A stretch of 64,000 bases of DNA, from the NCBI RefSeq assembly GCF_904846315.1, contig NZ_CAJHAF010000001.1, positions 1,922,001 to 1,986,000 of the forward strand. Reading direction: 5' to 3'. Numbering within the stretch: position 1 is the first letter of the stretch; each line of letters opens with the position of its first letter. The translations under genes and the position numbers were made by a program. This DNA comes from Psychrobacter jeotgali (GTDB lineage Bacteria; Pseudomonadota; Gammaproteobacteria; Pseudomonadales; Moraxellaceae). Shown here in pieces: positions 8,040-16,364 of the stretch. The notes under the pieces are model-generated. The model ran no database searches. It worked only from the letters and a program-made list of their open reading frames with translations, and had not been told where the DNA came from.

Positions 8040-9347
8040 CTATATCGTCGCCACCAACCCTATCTTTCGTGCTTCTTTCAGCCAGCTTGGAAACTCTTCT
8101 AACATATTCTCATACAAAGCGTCTTCGCTAATATCGTCTAAATCATCCAATTCAAAAAAGCTGCAATTATCAAGTAGTCGTCCAGTCATGTTATCTAAGT
8201 CTTTTAAAATGCCATAACTGCGCCCGCCCAAACCCACGAATTGCCAAAATATCGGTAGCTTTGCAGCTTCCGTCATTATTTTGGTGATACCGCGAGTATC
8301 ACGCACACCGCCATCACTGATAAATAAAATATAAACTGGCACGTTAAGTCCGTCATTCTGATAAAAGTCAGTGACGGCTTTCATTACTCCAGCTTCATTA
8401 TTGGTGCGTGCGCCCAGCTCCCATTTACGCCAACCACCTTGGACGGTATCGATAAAGTCAGCGTAGTTATTAAGTCCAGCCTCACCTAAATATGAGCAGT
8501 GTTCACCGAATGCCCAACAGTCTAACGCTTGGTCATCGTCAAAGCTGACGGCTAGTGGCAATAAGCGATTGACCACTTCTTGTACGCGTCCTTGTTTATA
8601 TTGTTGATGCATTGAACCTGTCGCATCCAATACTAAGGCAACCTTAGCGGTTAGTTGCTGTAATTGGCGTTTTTCTAAAGATATAGTAGCTTTTTTGGCA
8701 AGGTTGACGAGCTTTGGGGCTTGCTCTAACATCACCTTTTCTAAAGCGACTTTTGAGGTATTTACTTTAGGTGGTTGCGGAGCTGGTGAAGCGACATTTC
8801 CGCTATCATCCTCTGCTACATCACCACCGAAGTGCTGCACTATCGCAGCTAAGCCACCGTTAAACCCTTGTGCGACGTTGGCTAAGCGCCAAACTCCACT
8901 TTTACGATAAATTTGCATGAGCATACTGGCTTGCTGCTGAGCAAAGTCTGCTGCTTGGTAGTGCGCTTGTGCTTTTTGGGCTTGTTGCCAAACGCCTATT
9001 TCTAACGATTGGATTTGATTGAGTGGCGTATCGGCTGATAACACGAAATATAAACTATCTATATTAGCAGCTAGTTTGGATAAGTTAATCTCAAACTCGG
9101 CTTGAATGCCTTTGTCGGTACTGGGCTGCGATTCATAATGAGTGAGCTTAATTTGTCCACAGGGCGAGGTTGGCTGATTATAAAACACCATGTAATCATC
9201 GTTTATCAGCTTGCCTGCACTATCTAAGGCAAAGCAGCTAACGTCTATCTCTATCGGACTTTGACGGGTGAATTTTAGAGTTATTGGTAAAGTTACGTCG
9301 ATGTTGAGATTGCTTAGAGGTAGGCGTTGTCCGATGGTTAGGTTCAT
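8040..9347 (-). CDS. TerF-like protein: TerD-type N-terminus plus VWA domain
   Basis: 435 residues. The first 180 or so resemble a TerD/stress-protein fold (IEIDVSCFALDSAGKLINDDYMVFYNQP, then FEINLSKLAANIDSLYFVLSA). The C-terminal half is the vWA domain of TerF: metal-site motif LVLDATGSM near residue 240 and FISDGGV near residue 340. Ter proteins link tellurite resistance, colicin tolerance and phage exclusion to the cell envelope, with Ca2+-binding TerD domains. No other ter gene (terZABCDE) is present in the window, so this is a solo member. AAGGAACACC before the ATG is a good ribosome-binding site. It lies downstream of an AT-rich pair but is separated from it by a terminator. Confidence 0.82.
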   Translation of the reverse strand: MNLTIGQRLPLSNLNIDVTLPITLKFTRQSPIEIDVSCFALDSAGKLINDDYMVFYNQPTSPCGQIKLTHYESQPSTDKGIQAEFEINLSKLAANIDSLYFVLSADTPLNQIQSLEIGVWQQAQKAQAHYQAADFAQQQASMLMQIYRKSGVWRLANVAQGFNGGLAAIVQHFGGDVAEDDSGNVASPAPQPPKVNTSKVALEKVMLEQAPKLVNLAKKATISLEKRQLQQLTAKVALVLDATGSMHQQYKQGRVQEVVNRLLPLAVSFDDDQALDCWAFGEHCSYLGEAGLNNYADFIDTVQGGWRKWELGARTNNEAGVMKAVTDFYQNDGLNVPVYILFISDGGVRDTRGITKIMTEAAKLPIFWQFVGLGGRSYGILKDLDNMTGRLLDNCSFFELDDLDDISEDALYENMLEEFPSWLKEARKIGLVATI

Positions 9348-9663: not shown

Positions 9664-10563
9664 TTAGGACTTACTTTTATGCTGCTTCATTGCTAACAAG
9701 TAAAGCTCCAACTCTACCCGATCGCCTATCTCATCTAAAATCATAGACATTTGATTTGCTTCAATTATATCAGTTGGTTGGCACAAGTATGTTCCATATG
9801 ATACAACAGAAAAGACATACCTGTAAGTAACGTCTTGAATTTTAATTGTAACTGGTTTACAGTAAATTGAGCCTATGTTATTAGATTCTTGAGAACGTTC
9901 TGACTGAAGAAATACTTGTTGGAAAATACCTTCATTTAAATCTGCTAAAAAAATAGGTACACCATTATCTATAGCTTTCCTTGCCAAAGAATCACCTTTC
10001 ATCAAGGTATTAGCACTCGTGTGACTTCTTTGATGGTCTAATTTCAAAATAAACCGCCAATTTTCATTATCACTTCCGTCTTTTGCTACGCTACTTAATA
10101 TGGTTACTGCCAACTGATTGCGATTAACGCCCCAGAACTCAAAAAAACCACTTAACTGATTCATTATGAATTTAATCTGATCTTGGGGATGTGTAATCTC
10201 TTGAAAGAAATTAACACGTCTACTTTCTGTTTTTAATCTTGTTGCTTTTTCATAAAATCTGTTCTTTTTAGTCGTTACAATACTTCTTATAAGACCAATA
10301 AATCTTTGTAAAACAAGCTCATTCTCTTTTTTATTCTTATCTGACATATAGTCATAATACGCTTTAAACAGAACACTTATTACGGTAGCGACTATTAAAA
10401 ACTTATAAAAATTTCCGTGTGCTTCTTTATTTAAGGCTATCCAATCCCATTCATCACCCCAAATATCTAGAGTAGTGTAATACAAAAATAGGAAAATCGA
10501 TAAAACTGAACTTAACCATGAAGTCTTAAAAATATGTTCAAATTTTTTCAGAAGTTTTTTCAA
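9664..10563 (-). CDS. two-TM membrane protein with GAF-like cytoplasmic domain
   Basis: 299 residues starting with TTG; AGGATAGACT just before it fixes the start. Hydrophobic segments lie at about residues 16-33 and 54-70, the rest being cytoplasmic. A basic, helical linker (residues 75-125) leads to a domain with a GAF-like pattern: AIDNGVPIFLADL, then IGSIYCKPVTI, then YVFSVVSYGTYL, ending in a long helix SMILDEIGDRVELELYLLAM. GAF domains bind small ligands or cyclic nucleotides and signal through coiled helices; the ligand here cannot be told. Base composition is markedly AT-rich (17 G or C in 10261-10320, against 29 of 60 in a sample of valS), pointing to acquisition by transfer. It forms an operon with the 61-residue ORF. 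A catalytic output domain is lacking, so the small protein may be the effector or a regulator. Confidence 0.65.
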   Translation of the reverse strand: MKKLLKKFEHIFKTSWLSSVLSIFLFLYYTTLDIWGDEWDWIALNKEAHGNFYKFLIVATVISVLFKAYYDYMSDKNKKENELVLQRFIGLIRSIVTTKKNRFYEKATRLKTESRRVNFFQEITHPQDQIKFIMNQLSGFFEFWGVNRNQLAVTILSSVAKDGSDNENWRFILKLDHQRSHTSANTLMKGDSLARKAIDNGVPIFLADLNEGIFQQVFLQSERSQESNNIGSIYCKPVTIKIQDVTYRYVFSVVSYGTYLCQPTDIIEANQMSMILDEIGDRVELELYLLAMKQHKSKS

Positions 10564-10797
10564 AGTCTATCCTAAATAATATTTCTTAATATGTGATTAT
10601 AATTAAAAAAATAAGTCTATCCAAAACCCTTGAAAATTCACTTAAAATAGTATATTCATCATCAATATAATCACATCCATTTTATGCACTTTAAGCGATA
10701 AAATTGCACCACGAAAGCTGATAGATAATATCATACAAATATCTAGCTATAGAATAATAATAGAGGTTGAGAGAGAAATCTATCTAATACTAAATAA

Positions 10798-10836
10798 AAA
10801 AACGCCATCATAAATTATGACGACGTTCTTTTTTAA
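10798..10836 (-). terminator. terminator, probably that of the ancestral valS
   Basis: AAAAAAACGCCATCATAA pairs with TTATGACGACGTTCTTTTTT through a stem with two G-U/A-C variations, with A and T runs on both sides. It lies 22 bases past the stop codon of the valS-tail remnant, the spot expected for the original valS terminator. Confidence 0.65.
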
Positions 10837-10857
10837 TACAGATATTTACGTTTCAAT

Positions 10858-10893
10858 TATAAAGCCTTTAATTTCTCAATCTGCGCCGCTAGA
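10858..10893 (-). pseudogene. valS 3'-terminal remnant (copy C)
   Basis: Read on the minus strand it encodes LAAQIEKLKAL and a TAA stop. The intact ValRS ends in [11 protein letters not shown] at 13138, with the DNA TATAAAGCCTT shared at the stop. An in-frame TAG precedes the remnant, so it is not expressed as part of a protein. It is read here as the displaced original end of valS. Confidence 0.65.
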
Positions 10894-10989
10894 ATCTAGG
10901 AAGTGATCATTTACCTCGAACATAAGCTACTTTTCATTTATGGCTGTTACTCTATTTAAAATTTGTGGACAGATTATTGTGTGCAGTGC

Positions 10990-11187
10990 GTACTTGCGCG
11001 AGGGACGAGCGCCGAGCAAAGCCTTTAAAAAAACACCGTCTCATGCATCGCATATTTCTATAGTTTAAAGAACTCCAATGCTGAGGCCATGCTCTTTAAG
11101 CTTTTGCTTTTTTCTTCTCTGAAACTTAGCCAATTCAGTTCTTTCAGTATCAACCACCTCAACAGATACCTCACCAACAAATTTTCA
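10990..11187 (-). pseudogene. decayed second copy of the valS 3' end plus downstream flank (copy B)
   Basis: Bases 10996-11110 match the DNA directly downstream of valS (13029-13137) with small indels; shared strings include CGCATATTT, TTAAAGAACT and GCCATGCTCTTTAA. Bases 11111-11187 translate on the minus strand to a peptide with EVV-[DE]-x-E-[RK]-x-x-LA, parallel to ValRS residues about 40 before its end. About 50 bases containing the true stop are missing. Same orientation as valS. Confidence 0.72.
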
Positions 11188-11209
11188 AACTAACAAAGCA
11201 ACTAACATA

Positions 11210-12202
11210 TTAGCCCAACAACTGACTACTTTCTACCTCTATTCTCAATCCATCAACAACCATATTGATCTTACTCGACAACTCAATCTCTTCCTTATTA
11301 TAATCACCCTTCTTAAATAACGCCTTCGACTTCTTCGCCGCCTTGATATAAGCACTATTCTTATAGAGTGCTGCGGTGACTTCTCGATTTATACTAGCCA
11401 GCTGATTCAGATAGGACTCTAACTCTCTGTTGTTAGTATTAAGCAGAATAATAGTGTTCTCTAGCTTTTCTGAGTTGTCTAAAATAGCTTTTATCTTTTC
11501 TATTAGTGCCTTATCTTGCTGCTCAAATTTCTTAGTATTCGCACGTGATTTGAAAGTCGAGAATGCAACTATAGGGATAATCATGATGGCTAGAACCAGT
11601 AAATAACTCATGAGAGTCGTACCGCTACCGCCCAAGGCTAATAGTAGAAACCAGATGACCATTATGATTAACAGTCCTGCCATAATCCCAGTGAATATCG
11701 TAAATGACGGGAACCATGTTTTGAGCCGAGCGACTTTAGTAAAGCCAAGGCCATCAATCATATTAACTTGACTGTCTATTTTATCGGTATTTTTGAGCGC
11801 TTCTATTACTTCTCTTATCAGTGCCACGTCAGTGACTAAGCGACTACTCGCCTTTAGCTCTTTTATGGTCAATGAGATGTTTTGCTCTAACTTGGCGATA
11901 CCTACGTTTATCTGCTCTTGTAGCTCGGTGACTTTATTAAAGATATAACTATATTGCTCATAGGTATTATCATACGAGTTGCGACTTTTTATCGACGCTT
12001 CATGATGACCTAAAGTCGCCAAATACAGCAGCGTACTTTTAAAATCGCTTTCATAATACTCTTGTCTATCGTAGGTAATATTAGAGTAAGTCTTGAGTTG
12101 TTTATATTTTGGCGAATCTTTTTGCTTGCTTTGATGTATGAGATAGCCAACGATAGCTAGTAGCAAAGCTACGATGACAAGCTTGAGATAAATACTATCC
12201 AT
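11210..12202 (-). CDS. membrane protein with coiled-coil flanks, unrecognised
   Basis: 330 residues. An N-terminal hydrophobic segment (about residues 7-22, YLKLVIVALLLAIVGYLI) is followed by a polar helical stretch (about 35-150), then two closely spaced membrane segments (about 170-195 and 198-215), and a second long helical stretch to the C-terminus (KKFEQQDKALIEKIKAILDNSEKLENTI...). The helical parts have heptad-like hydrophobic spacing suggestive of coiled coils. No enzymatic motif is visible. It lies between decayed valS repeats next to a toxin-antitoxin pair, so it is probably island cargo. Possible roles include membrane stress sensing or phage exclusion, but nothing in the sequence proves either. 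GGAAAACGCTT precedes the ATG. Confidence 0.7.
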   Translation of the reverse strand: MDSIYLKLVIVALLLAIVGYLIHQSKQKDSPKYKQLKTYSNITYDRQEYYESDFKSTLLYLATLGHHEASIKSRNSYDNTYEQYSYIFNKVTELQEQINVGIAKLEQNISLTIKELKASSRLVTDVALIREVIEALKNTDKIDSQVNMIDGLGFTKVARLKTWFPSFTIFTGIMAGLLIIMVIWFLLLALGGSGTTLMSYLLVLAIMIIPIVAFSTFKSRANTKKFEQQDKALIEKIKAILDNSEKLENTIILLNTNNRELESYLNQLASINREVTAALYKNSAYIKAAKKSKALFKKGDYNKEEIELSSKINMVVDGLRIEVESSQLLG

Positions 12203-12313
12203 AAGCGTTTTCCGGTTTTGATAAGGGGTTATGGATAGCGCTAACTATAGCTAGTTAATTATAAATTAAGCAAAATATTGACTTCTTTAACTTGGCATAG
12301 GGAATCTATACAA

Positions 12314-12700
12314 CTAAGCCTTCTTAACACTCAGATCATACTTCCAAATTGACGCATCATGCGTAATCAAAGTCAAATCTTCATCTAAAGCCTGAACTAT
12401 CAGCAGCCTATCAAAAGGATCTTTATGATGACTTGGAAGGCTCTCTAACAACAGAGTATGCTTAGAGAGTACAGGCAATTCAATAAAACCATGCTCAAGC
12501 ATCTGCTCATATAGTTTTACGCTATCAACCTGAAAATTACTCTTATCAAGCTGGTTTTTAATAGCGATTTCCCAAAAGTTAACCGCGCTAAAGTAAATGT
12601 CATAATCAATATTTTTTAGTATCGACTTAACAGAGGGATTGATTTTATCGGGACTATTTGCCAGCCAAAGTACTATATGAGTATCAAGAAGATAACCCAT
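12314..12700 (-). CDS. vapC: PIN-domain toxin, VapC type
   Basis: 128 residues from the ATG at 12700, which overlaps the antitoxin TGA (TGATG); a GTG at 12703 is an alternative. PIN signatures: LLDTHIVLWL with the first acidic residue near position 6, SAVNFWEIAIK with the conserved Glu, HHKDPFDRLLIVQA with two Asp, and LITHDASI near the end. PIN toxins are Mg2+-dependent ribonucleases, often cutting initiator tRNA or rRNA. Translation is coupled to the antitoxin directly upstream. The protein appears complete. Confidence 0.9.
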   Translation of the reverse strand: MGYLLDTHIVLWLANSPDKINPSVKSILKNIDYDIYFSAVNFWEIAIKNQLDKSNFQVDSVKLYEQMLEHGFIELPVLSKHTLLLESLPSHHKDPFDRLLIVQALDEDLTLITHDASIWKYDLSVKKA

Positions 12701-12942
12701 CACTCTACCCCAAACAAATCTTGCACTCGCTCATCGCCCCAATGAATATCGTCCGGCACCGTCATCTCACCTTGCATAAACCCAAGTTTTCGTTTTTGCT
12801 TAACGCCTTGAGTATCTTCTGACGTATCTTTTTCTACAGGCGATAATACCGTGACAATCACTTGCGCAGAAGTGACCAATGGCGGTGTATCTAACCATTT
12901 GATTTTTCCTTCTTCTATCACTGCTCGATAACTATTTAGCAT
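12697..12942 (-). CDS. antitoxin of the PIN toxin (VapB-like)
   Basis: 81 residues or slightly less from the ATG at 12942; an upstream GTG at 12954 would add four residues. The N-terminus MLNSYRAVIEEGKIKWLD resembles small beta-strand antitoxins, and the C-terminal region KRKLGFMQGEMTVPDDIHWGDERVQDLFG is a common toxin-binding tail in antitoxins paired with PIN proteins. The stop codon overlaps the start of the toxin gene, the normal gene order for type II systems. It is expected to bind DNA upstream and repress the pair. The pair lies just downstream of valS and its repeated flank. Confidence 0.82.
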
Positions 12943-13023
12943 GACGAATCTCACTTATATTATTTCTGCTTATCACTCATCTTATAATCATTCTACGCTT
13001 TTTGCTAGAAAGTCATAATATAA

Positions 13024-13137
13024 GCACTGCGCGAGCGCCGAGCGAAGCTTTTAAAGAACACCGAGCAATGACCCGCATATTTGCCCCCTATTAAAGAACT
13101 CAATGCTGAAGCCATGCTCTTTAATCTTTTGCCTTTT
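13024..13137 (-). repeat. valS downstream flank, copy A of the duplicated block
   Basis: This AT/GC-mixed flank (including GCGCGAGCGCCGAGCGAAGC and GCCATGCTCTTTAA) recurs in decayed form at 10990-11110. Together with the valS 3' end it makes a direct repeat bracketing the 330-residue gene and the toxin-antitoxin pair. No terminator of usual form follows the valS stop here. Confidence 0.7.
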
Positions 13138-16113
13138 TTATAAAGCCTTCAACTCTTCCATCTGCTTATCCATAGTCTTAAGCTGCCCTTCTAGCTCAGC
13201 CAATTTTACCTTCTCAGCCTCAACCACTTCAGCAGGCGCTTTACTGGTAAAGCCTTCATTACTCAGCTTACGTGAGATGCCGTCCGCTTGCTTTTGTAGC
13301 TTCTCATAGGATTTACCTAAACGCTTAAGCTCGGCGGTTGGATCGATTAGTCCTTTCATCGGGACAAGGACGCGCAGTTGCCCGACCATACTGGATGACG
13401 ATAGTGGCACCTCATCGCCTTCTTTGAGTGTTTCCAAACTATCGACTTTCGCCAGCGCCTTAAACTGGTTCTTAATCCGTGCTAGGCGCTGCTCTTCCTC
13501 GTCAGAGATGTTTTGTAGCAGCACGGGCAAGCGCACGGCATTACCCAGTTTCATTTCACCACGGATATTACGCACACTGGCGATAAGCTGTTGTAGCCAG
13601 TCCATATCGGCTTCGATTTGCTCGCTGATTTTGTCAGGATTGGCGGTTGGATAATCAGCAATGACGATGCTATCGGTATTTTTACGTTCTAAAAGTGGCG
13701 CGATGGTTTGCCAAATCTGCTCGGTCAGGTACGGCATGATCGGATGGGTAAAGCGCATCGAGGTCTCAAGCACATGCAACAGCACGTAGCGAATTTGTGC
13801 TTTACGCGCGTCCGATACTGAGTCGTCATTCAGACTGGCTTTGGCAAGCTCAACGTACCAATCGCAGTATTCGTTCCAAATAAAGTCATAGATATCATGG
13901 CTGACCATATCGAGACGATACTGGGCAAAATGTTGATGGATACTAGTAATTGTCGAATTCAGACGGCTGACGATCCATTTTTCGGGTAGCTCCCATACTT
14001 CGGTATTGACGCTTTGGTCGATTGGTAGCGCATTGCCTTCTTTATCTACGCAGTTCATCAACACAAAACGGCTGGCGTTCCAGATTTTATTACAGAAGTT
14101 GCGATAGCCCTCGACCCGCTTGAGATCAAAGTTAATATCACGTCCCGTACTGGCTAAAGAGGTAAAGGTAAAGCGCAGTGCGTCCGTACCGTAGGCGGCG
14201 ATGCCTTCAGGGAACTCTTTACGGGTTTGCTTTTCGATCTTGGCAGCGTCTTTGGGGTTCATCATGTTGCTGGTACGTTTTTCGACCAAGCTTTCAAGGT
14301 CGATACCATCGATAATATCAATAGGGTCTAAGACGTTACCTTTGGATTTGGACATTTTTTGACCTTGTCCATCACGCACCAAACCATGCACATAAACGGT
14401 TTTGAACGGGACTTGCGGACTGCCATCGTCATTTTTCACAAAGTGCATGGTCATCATGATCATGCGCGCCACCCAAAAGAAGATAATGTCGAAGCCAGTA
14501 ACCAAGACGCTAGTCGGATGGAAGGTGTCCATGACTCGAGGATCAGCGCTGTCATCTGCCCAGCCCAGCGTACTAAAAGTCCAAAGACCGGAGCTGAACC
14601 AAGTATCGAGGACGTCATCGTCTTGACGCAATTTGACATCATCACTCAAGTTATATTTGCTACGGACTTCTGCCTCATTACGCGCCACATAAATCTCGCC
14701 GGTCGCATCGTCATACCACGCCGGAATACGGTGCCCCCACCACAATTGACGGCTGATACACCAGTCCTGTAGTCCATTCATCCAGGCCATGTACATGTTT
14801 TTATACTGCGCAGGGACAAACTCAATACGCCCATCTTCTACCGCTTCAATCGCAGGCTGAGCCAGCTTTTCAACCGCTACATACCACTGATCGGTCAACC
14901 ACGGCTCCACGATGACCCCACTACGGTCACCACGTGGCGCTTTTAGTTGATAGTCTTCAACTTCCTCGAGCCAGCCCTGTGCTTGCGCTTGCGCTACCAG
15001 ATGTTTGCGAGCACTAAAACGCTCAAGCCCAGCATAGCTATTGCCTAAATGGTCGCTAGGGGTCGCCTCTAATGTCGGCTCACGGGTTTGCAGATCAGGA
15101 TAAACCTCCATCTCTGGCAAAATATTGGCATGTGCATCTAACACATTGATCAGCGGTAAGTTATGGCGGCGACCCAGCTCATAATCATTAAAATCATGAG
15201 CAGGAGTAATTTTGACACAACCGGTACCAAAGTCGCTCTCGACATAATCGTCGGCAACGATAGGTACGACACGATTGGTGATTGGTAAGGTAACGGTTTT
15301 ACCGACCAAATGGGCGTAACGCTCATCACTAGGGTTGACCGCAACCGCCGTATCACCCAGCAGAGTTTCTGGACGGGTAGTCGCTACAATTAAATAGTCT
15401 TTGCCATCTTGAGTACGCAAGTCTTTATCGGTGAAGTGATAACGAAAGTGCCATAGATTGCCTTTTTCGTCATGGTTTTCGACTTCCAAATCAGAAAGCG
15501 CCGTCTGAAACTTAGGATCCCAGTTCACCAGACGTTTACCACGATAAATCAAACCGTCATCGAATAGGCGCACGAACACTTCTTTTACCGCATTAGACAG
15601 CCCTTCATCCATAGTAAAGCGCTCACGCGACCAATCTACCGAGCTACCCAAACGGCGAATCTGACGGCTAATATTATCACCCGACTCTTCTTTCCATTCC
15701 CACACCTTGTCAATAAAAGCTTCACGGCCAATATCATGGCGCTTGATGCCCTCGGCATTGAGGCGACGCTCAACTACCATTTGGGTGGCGATACCGGCGT
15801 GATCACTACCCGGCTGCCACAGCGTATTGTCGCCATCCATACGGTGATAACGGGTCAGCGCATCCATAATCGCATTATTAAACCCGTGCCCCATGTGCAG
15901 GGAACCTGTGACATTAGGCGGTGGCAAAGCGATTGAAAACGACTCATCTTTATCAAAAGTGGGCTGAAAGTAACCACTTTCTTCCCAGCCTTGGTACATG
16001 CCCGCCTCAACCTCGCTGGGGTTATAGGCATTCTCAAGTTGACCTAAGGCGGCTTGGATGGACTGGGTTAAATGACTTGGGTTAGCAGTAGATTTAATGT
16101 TAGATTGGCTCAT
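13138..16113 (-). CDS. valS: valyl-tRNA synthetase
   Basis: 991 residues from the ATG at 16113; an upstream in-frame ATG at 16131 would add six. It charges tRNA-Val with valine in the cytoplasm. The class I HIGH-type motif is [14 protein letters not shown] (about residues 65-78) and the KMSKS loop is [14 protein letters not shown] near residue 585. The editing domain that hydrolyses Thr-tRNA-Val lies between them ([15 protein letters not shown]). The C-terminal helical coiled coil ([18 protein letters not shown]... KLAELEGQL) contacts the tRNA. Length is slightly above the E. coli enzyme (951), from an N-terminal extension of about 30 residues. The 3' end has been duplicated twice downstream, indicating an insertion hotspot. 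Confidence 0.98.
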
Positions 16114-16364
16114 AAGTATGGTCTTTATCATTTTTTGATTGGTAAGTTTTTGCTTAAAAATAAGCGCAAAATTAGTAGTAAGTTGATTTTAACGCAGATA
16201 GCATTATTTTGTTAGATGCGAAGGTCATTTATAGGGTTAGAAGTCTCTGATTAAACAATTAACAACATCAATCGCCCTCTACCCTCATATAATAGGGTGA
16301 CGCTATGCGCTAGCATAAGCATTATTTCTCTTAAAGCTATTTTATAATTAACAGCGAGTTTAAA

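Follow-up and report, generated by a model that had tools for sequence, protein, structure and literature searches.

In an integron cassette array, co-oriented cassettes enter at one point behind a promoter, the newest lying nearest the entry, and the system relies on an integron integrase and attC sites. Other described systems also hold changing genes at a fixed site. The minimal mobile elements of Neisseria are described as variable cassettes between conserved genes that carry no mobility genes and are exchanged by homologous recombination (PMC2649163). The core defence hotspots of Pseudomonas aeruginosa are described as conserved core flanks with tRNA or tmRNA genes that enclose changing defence genes without a single mobile element, and how core-gene defence hotspots are built, and whether homologous recombination moves them, is named in that account as future work (PMC10250203). 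SGI1 at trmE is presented as an integrase island that enters the 3′ end of a gene (PMC8409611), and restriction-modification genes are reported to insert with long, variable target duplications that bracket them (Kobayashi; cited in PMC3031569). Here we describe the 3′ end of valS in a 64,000-nucleotide (nt) stretch of the Psychrobacter jeotgali genome (contig NZ_CAJHAF010000001.1, positions 1,922,001 to 1,986,000), hereafter the window. An original prediction made from these letters had proposed repeated insertion at the valS end, with a replacement tail supplied and the old tail left downstream. This proposal was supported: extra valS tails were present in 25 of 101 genomes of the genus, and in one of them (G100) the native tail lies behind the inserted cassette. 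The valS 3′ end is a real, recurrent landing site in the genus and, in our judgement, probably a cassette hotspot that spreads when copies of the valS tail recombine homologously.

The genus sample comprised 105 genomes assigned to Psychrobacter by protein names, and a valS match was found in 101 of them. A protein search detected a second, truncated tail near valS in 21 genomes (a distant 28% match in G006 was left out), and a panel of 74 tails run on the fetched loci added L102, L106 and L123. Together with the window, recognised at the DNA level, these 24 loci make up the 25 genomes; L135, in which valS is broken, was not counted among the extra tails and L136 was left out as unreadable. 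Tails also stack, since L038 carries two extra ones behind valS. When one panel method was applied to all loci with at least 1.5 kb behind the stop codon, extra tails were found at 21 of 86 valS loci, two of them (copy B of the window and L118) only at E 0.036, and the L118 match is probably due to chance. The same method returned a tail-like piece at 14 of 209 ends of four conserved neighbour genes (cluster 1, 12/67; cluster 2, 0/66; cluster 4, 0/34; cluster 5, 2/42). Thirteen of these 14 pieces begin no more than 6 nt from the stop codon and represent the same gene in a longer or broken form, and the single displaced piece lies 2.3 kb off a TerF-like gene in L090. A first control, in which window genes were searched with their own tail only, gave 0/41 and was discarded as too blunt, since valS, which was among the 41, was missed as well. 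Across the genus, an 888-amino-acid (aa) control gene had no genome with more than two matches, its second matches being distant long-frame paralogues, and an 809-aa control gene had more than two in 4 of 104 genomes (split frames in G066 and G075; also G032 and G060); among the matches listed, neither showed a pattern comparable to that of the valS tails. Truncated valS tails were also present in another genus of the family (g15; L137-L144), 0.55-0.75 kb behind valS in G168, G205, G255 and G259. Of the 147 genomes with valS searched with a query from that genus, 4 gave a second valS match, including G314, which holds two complete valS copies and has 7% contamination.

Such tails could in principle be in-place duplications, or chance similarity between coiled coils, rather than scars of insertion. 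The C-terminal arms of ValRS are coiled coils, and the distant match in G006 and the short one in L118 would fit chance. However, matches at the DNA level extend through the stop codon and the terminator, only one displaced piece was found among the control ends, and the two tails of G100 come from different lineages. For copy C and for G100 these results already argue against such an origin, and we consider this explanation very improbable.

In the window, valS is read on the minus strand and its intact end, copy A, stops at 13138, where it had been placed (Table 1). Positions relative to the valS end are given below as minus and plus nt. Within the window, A and B aligned with a score of 60.5 against a shuffle maximum of 19, in agreement with the prediction that B repeats the flank and encodes a decayed ValRS tail, and A and C alone gave a marginal 18.5 against 17.5. 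When aligned to the valS ends of 98 other loci, with 30 crude shuffles as control, the tail part of B matched -111 to -47 (score 55, best shuffle 38) and C with its following DNA matched -27 to +124 (139 against 45). C and its flank match the valS end of G005 through the stop codon, the terminator and most of the spacer, as expected for the end of a valS tail followed by its terminator. Among the window copies, the panel protein search reported only B, weakly (E 0.036), and in another panel run below-threshold status was not reached. The repeated valS tail in the window is real. The number of copies is less certain than the three originally counted: with B spanning -111 to -47 and C beginning only at -27, the window holds either three tails, or two of which the older is interrupted by a repeat, and B and C may be the halves of that old tail.

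This repeat, R, is the flank shared by A and B, which had been taken as part of the valS copy. It is instead a dispersed repeat of about 106 nt that does not belong to valS. Seven matches were found in the P. jeotgali genome at E <= 1, the A and B copies included, and matches occurred in 53 of the 105 genus genomes (E <= 0.01). R lies directly behind valS in 18 of 100 loci, counting the window, and is also present elsewhere; the shared flank alone is thus no evidence for a valS copy. In the window and in L003-L007 the repeat ends in GCTCGTCCCTCG, and between L042 and L071 the similarity shifts inside R. An Rfam search of 10500-13700 at E <= 1 gave no match, and R as a structured RNA was unconvincing (consensus fold -3.4 kcal/mol, 1 of 20 pairs compensatory).

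In many relatives valS runs directly into the terminator seen behind C, as had been anticipated for some strains, and then into the motif GAATATTTGTGTGCTATTAT, after which the sequences diverge. The hairpin behind C is one of 6 terminator-like sites, and shuffles average 6.0; since such sites are no commoner than in shuffles, its support comes from the match to relatives. In 21 of 100 loci the motif was found at a distance of 60-220 nt behind valS (such loci being its source), and in 6 places it lay behind leftover tails, and elsewhere once on the plus strand and never on the minus strand (749 kb). By inspection it resembles an extended -10 promoter, from which the cargo might be transcribed. 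At +914 in L057 there is an extra copy of this promoter-like motif that no detectable tail precedes; it may mark an older unit that has decayed completely.

The displacement of a native tail could be followed in G100 (locus L042). Its nearest relative, G014, is 95% identical upstream. Over the last 105 nt the G014 tail is 98% identical to the displaced tail of G100, against 82% for the present tail; taken over the whole copy, the values are 93% and 82%. Diagnostic sites, counted by hand, were native (G014-like) at 64 of 78 positions upstream of -130, and from there on 12 of 13 were donor-like, although one site at -97 remains native when a second native reference is used. The leftover tail has its start between -131 and -127. 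Behind it, cargo 10 is 90-100% identical per 60 nt to G052 from +110 to +2030, the leftover tail and R themselves being 80-85% identical between the two genomes, and in G052 cargo 10 comes directly after valS and R, which is the G100 arrangement without the first cassette. The site pattern, the leftover tail and the G052 match together indicate that the point of entry was within valS and that the insert carried a new tail. From about -130 onward the present valS tail of G100 is foreign, with the native tail continuing behind the cassette. Homology-facilitated illegitimate recombination is described as usually deleting recipient DNA (PMC3240628); G100 lost none, which points to entry by a single crossover (circle) or by break repair at this locus.

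The start of the leftover tail could be read in 17 of 25 copies and spans about -58 to -189. Starts were alike within cassette 11 (about -150, 6 loci) and cassette 19 (-127 to -131, 3 of 3 loci) and different between cassette types, with -58 to -137 for cassette 20 and -189 in L037. For cassette 20 they shift even where the cassettes are nearly identical (98% protein identity), and later deletions in the leftover tail therefore have to be considered. These junctions bear on the possibility that a site-specific recombinase, lost or encoded elsewhere in the genome, integrates inside the valS tail and supplies a replacement tail as at tRNA genes. G100 looks like a clean point insertion of this kind, the uniform starts of cassettes 11 and 19 are in line with it, and tyrosine-recombinase-family genes occur somewhere in all 105 genus genomes, those among the matches listed being mostly XerC/XerD-like by length and uniformity. 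On the other hand, the starts differ among cassette types, and a fixed upstream core predicts that the leftover tail is the one resembling the nearest relative, whereas 17 of 19 loci showed the opposite, a count biased by decay of the leftovers. A search with PF00589 (Phage_integrase) gave 103 matches in 12 genomes, none of them, by eye, within 200 kb on the valS contig, serine recombinases not being searched for; in four of the 12 (G026, G035, G047 and G088) the contig reaches no further than 75 kb from valS on one side. Phage_integrase was likewise absent from the families listed (25 Pfam families per scan) for 123 of 149 cluster representatives, and the transposase-type families among those scanned (rve, DDE_3 and DDE_Tnp_1) had one member each. 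We consider a recombinase unlikely. A classic integrase element with one attachment core is not supported, and among these 12 genomes none had a tyrosine integrase near valS, such as the original prediction had suggested looking for.

Shared tracts provided a second line of evidence. Cassette 11 sits ahead of different downstream contents; L040, L041 and L051 carry versions of it with 96-100% identity per 60 nt, although their upstream valS sequences differ by 7-10%. The borders of this tract lie at -66 or -14 and at +385. L041 and L051 share little beyond -66 to +385, and their left border at -66 and right border at about -111 do not fit one core; across four locus pairs the borders of shared tracts vary. 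The three loci have in common the cassette and the start of its leftover tail without the DNA beyond, which needs a crossover at the tail. Homologous recombination between tail copies accounts for this pattern. The result also speaks against plain exchange between the conserved flanks, as in a minimal mobile element, in which the tail copies would be accidental leftovers of illegitimate events with no role in mobility. That explanation draws on the conservation of the flanks, on the 47 different first cargos counted in 90 loci and on the 76 of 101 genomes that have no extra tail, 14 loci having less than 1.5 kb behind valS; we regard it as improbable.

We favour a hotspot driven by recombination between valS tails. 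Cassettes of one or a few genes, mostly oriented like valS and partly defence-like, would enter just behind valS, many of them bracketed by tail copies of about 60-190 nt, some with the terminator and the promoter-like motif. The tail copies would serve as homology arms, and RecA-type recombination of an incoming with a resident tail would add, swap or remove a cassette, while the valS reading frame stays intact and the previous tail is pushed downstream and decays. Homologous recombination would be the engine and natural transformation a plausible route, and the first tail duplication may have arisen by one-sided or circle insertion. More tentatively, the 3′ end of valS, an essential gene, could act as an integrase-free attachment site, at which duplicated tails let host recombination excise and re-insert any cassette between them, giving an integron-like, promoter-proximal stack that includes defence genes and needs no enzyme of a mobile element for its assembly.

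Several observations weigh against recombination on tail copies. The starts were unreadable in 8 of 25 copies, and leftover tails may have been shortened by deletion, which makes the spread of junctions weaker evidence than it looks. Other cassette 11 pairs, such as L038/L040, were no more alike than their valS genes. Near-identical flanks were seen in 12 pairs, and in 10 of these the upstream valS sequences had diverged, with few and mixed changepoints over 600 nt of valS; toward the stop codon mismatches fell in 6 pairs and rose in 4, and a switch to zero was seen only in L041/L051 and L039/L043. Of the 23 cargos that follow a leftover tail, only 6 lie next to valS in another genome, a count that missed L042 (its cargo 10 is valS-adjacent elsewhere) owing to a small ORF in front of the cargo. 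The two boundaries in G100 are both close to -130, as a site-specific recombinase would also leave them. Finally, in 17 of 19 testable loci the tail of the nearest relative was closer to the current tail, the exceptions being G100 and G003; neutral decay of leftover tails biases this test toward the current tail, and crossovers near the stop codon would do the same. Clean displacement is not general and applies to one or two loci only.

The interval behind valS ends at a conserved block that starts with a TerD/TerF-like gene. The block was found in 76 loci at a median distance of 2.5 kb from valS (range 744 nt to 6.2 kb). A single arrangement in all relatives, with no empty site, had been named as the outcome that would contradict insertion; arrangements differ widely and G052 equals G100 minus its first cassette, although a wholly empty interval between valS and the block was not seen. 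The first cargo position was occupied by 47 clusters in 90 loci, related genomes not being independent, and 182 of 214 ORFs of at least 100 aa were co-oriented with valS and 32 ran against it (counted up to the block, or over the whole fetched stretch where no block was found). The scanned representatives (at least 85 aa) were drawn from fetched stretches, some beyond the interval. Many of their matches were to defence families, and the families matched included AAA_15/AAA_21 ATPases (AriA/PtuA-like), a protein kinase (PD-T4-6-like), an NYN protein (HEC-09), GmrSD, TIR, SIR2, HEPN, RloB, DUF4435, BrnT and a cytosine methylase. Matches of other kinds were also present, namely transporters (e.g. 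a Na+/H+ antiporter), ordinary enzymes and the three transposase-type matches. PADLOC matched 4 of 10 frequent cargo families, one of them weakly, and clusters 10, 11, 13 and 27 had no firm family match. The cargo is hypervariable and partly defence-like. The right-hand end may be hit by insertion too. Fragments of the TerD/TerF-like gene were seen at some loci (L038, L043, L090 and L098), L090 being the locus with the displaced control piece.

Downstream of valS, the window contains R, a small ORF with a PIN gene, a 330-aa gene, B, the second R, C with its terminator, a 299-aa gene and the TerD/TerF-like gene. Of the membrane protein and toxin-antitoxin pair assigned to the stretch between B and A, the pair stands as a toxin-antitoxin-like PIN gene with a small upstream partner; the other gene encodes the 330-aa protein, which has a weak LeoBC-like match and 50 homologues listed, the organism being named for 6, all Psychrobacter.

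Table 1. Features behind valS in the window (window coordinates)
Feature	Position	Strand	Evidence
valS, intact, 997 aa; target gene and tail copy A	13138..16131	-	Pfam tRNA-synt_1, Anticodon_1, Val_tRNA-synt_C
Dispersed repeat R, directly 3′ of the valS stop	13024..13137	-	Match counts in the text, this copy included
84-aa ORF, 4-nt overlap with the PIN gene; antitoxin-like by position only	12700..12954	-	ORF list; no Pfam match
PIN-domain protein, toxin-like	12314..12703	-	PF01850, E 2.1e-10
330-aa cargo protein (cluster 13)	11210..12202	-	Family behind valS in 9 loci including the window; weak PADLOC LeoBC, E 1.4e-6
Copy B, decayed valS tail	11114..11181	-	Alignment to other valS ends and panel search (scores in the text)
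Second repeat R, behind copy B	11006..11112	-	80% identity, E 7.4e-19
Copy C, end of a valS tail (27 nt plus stop codon)	10857..10886	-	Alignment with flank to other valS ends (scores in the text)
Terminator-like hairpin, resembling the one directly 3′ of valS in many relatives	10796..10832	-	Match to relatives
Degenerate match to the extended -10-like motif conserved behind the valS terminator in relatives	10725..10744	-	Alignment; 4 mismatches by eye, excluded from the motif count
299-aa cargo behind copy C	9664..10563	-	No family match
TerD/TerF-like protein, start of the conserved right-hand block	8040..9347	-	PF02342, PF10138; cluster 5 in 48 loci

In the titles and abstract beginnings of the literature searched, valS as a landing site was not found, and none combined valS, integration site and Psychrobacter; with this locus, valS would be added to the protein-coding genes whose 3′ ends serve as landing sites. 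Clusters 10, 11, 13 and 27, which are frequent in the cargo but lack a firm match, are, by their position, candidates for function tests. Compared with an integron array, the locus has a similar single entry behind a promoter-like motif and co-oriented cassettes, the most recent one lying closest to the entry, but no PF00589 match lies near valS in 12 genomes (attC was not searched for) and the repeats are pieces of valS. It resembles integrase islands such as SGI1 at trmE, as described for that island, in that entry is at the 3′ end and the gene stays whole, with a replacement tail and loci without the insert (G100 versus G014 and G052); it differs in having no integrase nearby in the genomes checked and no single core. 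Like insertions with long target duplication, the insert is flanked by a duplicated target, although the copies in G100 are of different origin, one fixed gene is hit recurrently and the tails stack. With the P. aeruginosa core defence hotspots it shares conserved core flanks, changing defence genes and the lack of a single mobile element, whereas here the landing site lies inside a synthetase gene, tail scars are left and only part of the cargo is defence-like. As in minimal mobile elements, conserved flanks enclose alternative cassettes that have no mobility genes of their own; unlike in those elements, the cassettes are separated by copies of the tail of the flanking gene itself, and these copies mark a stack. 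Since these tail scars record insertions, the way in which such a hotspot is put together can be traced and tested. Altogether, the valS 3′ end is a variant of the known cassette hotspots rather than the remnant of one ordinary integrase island.

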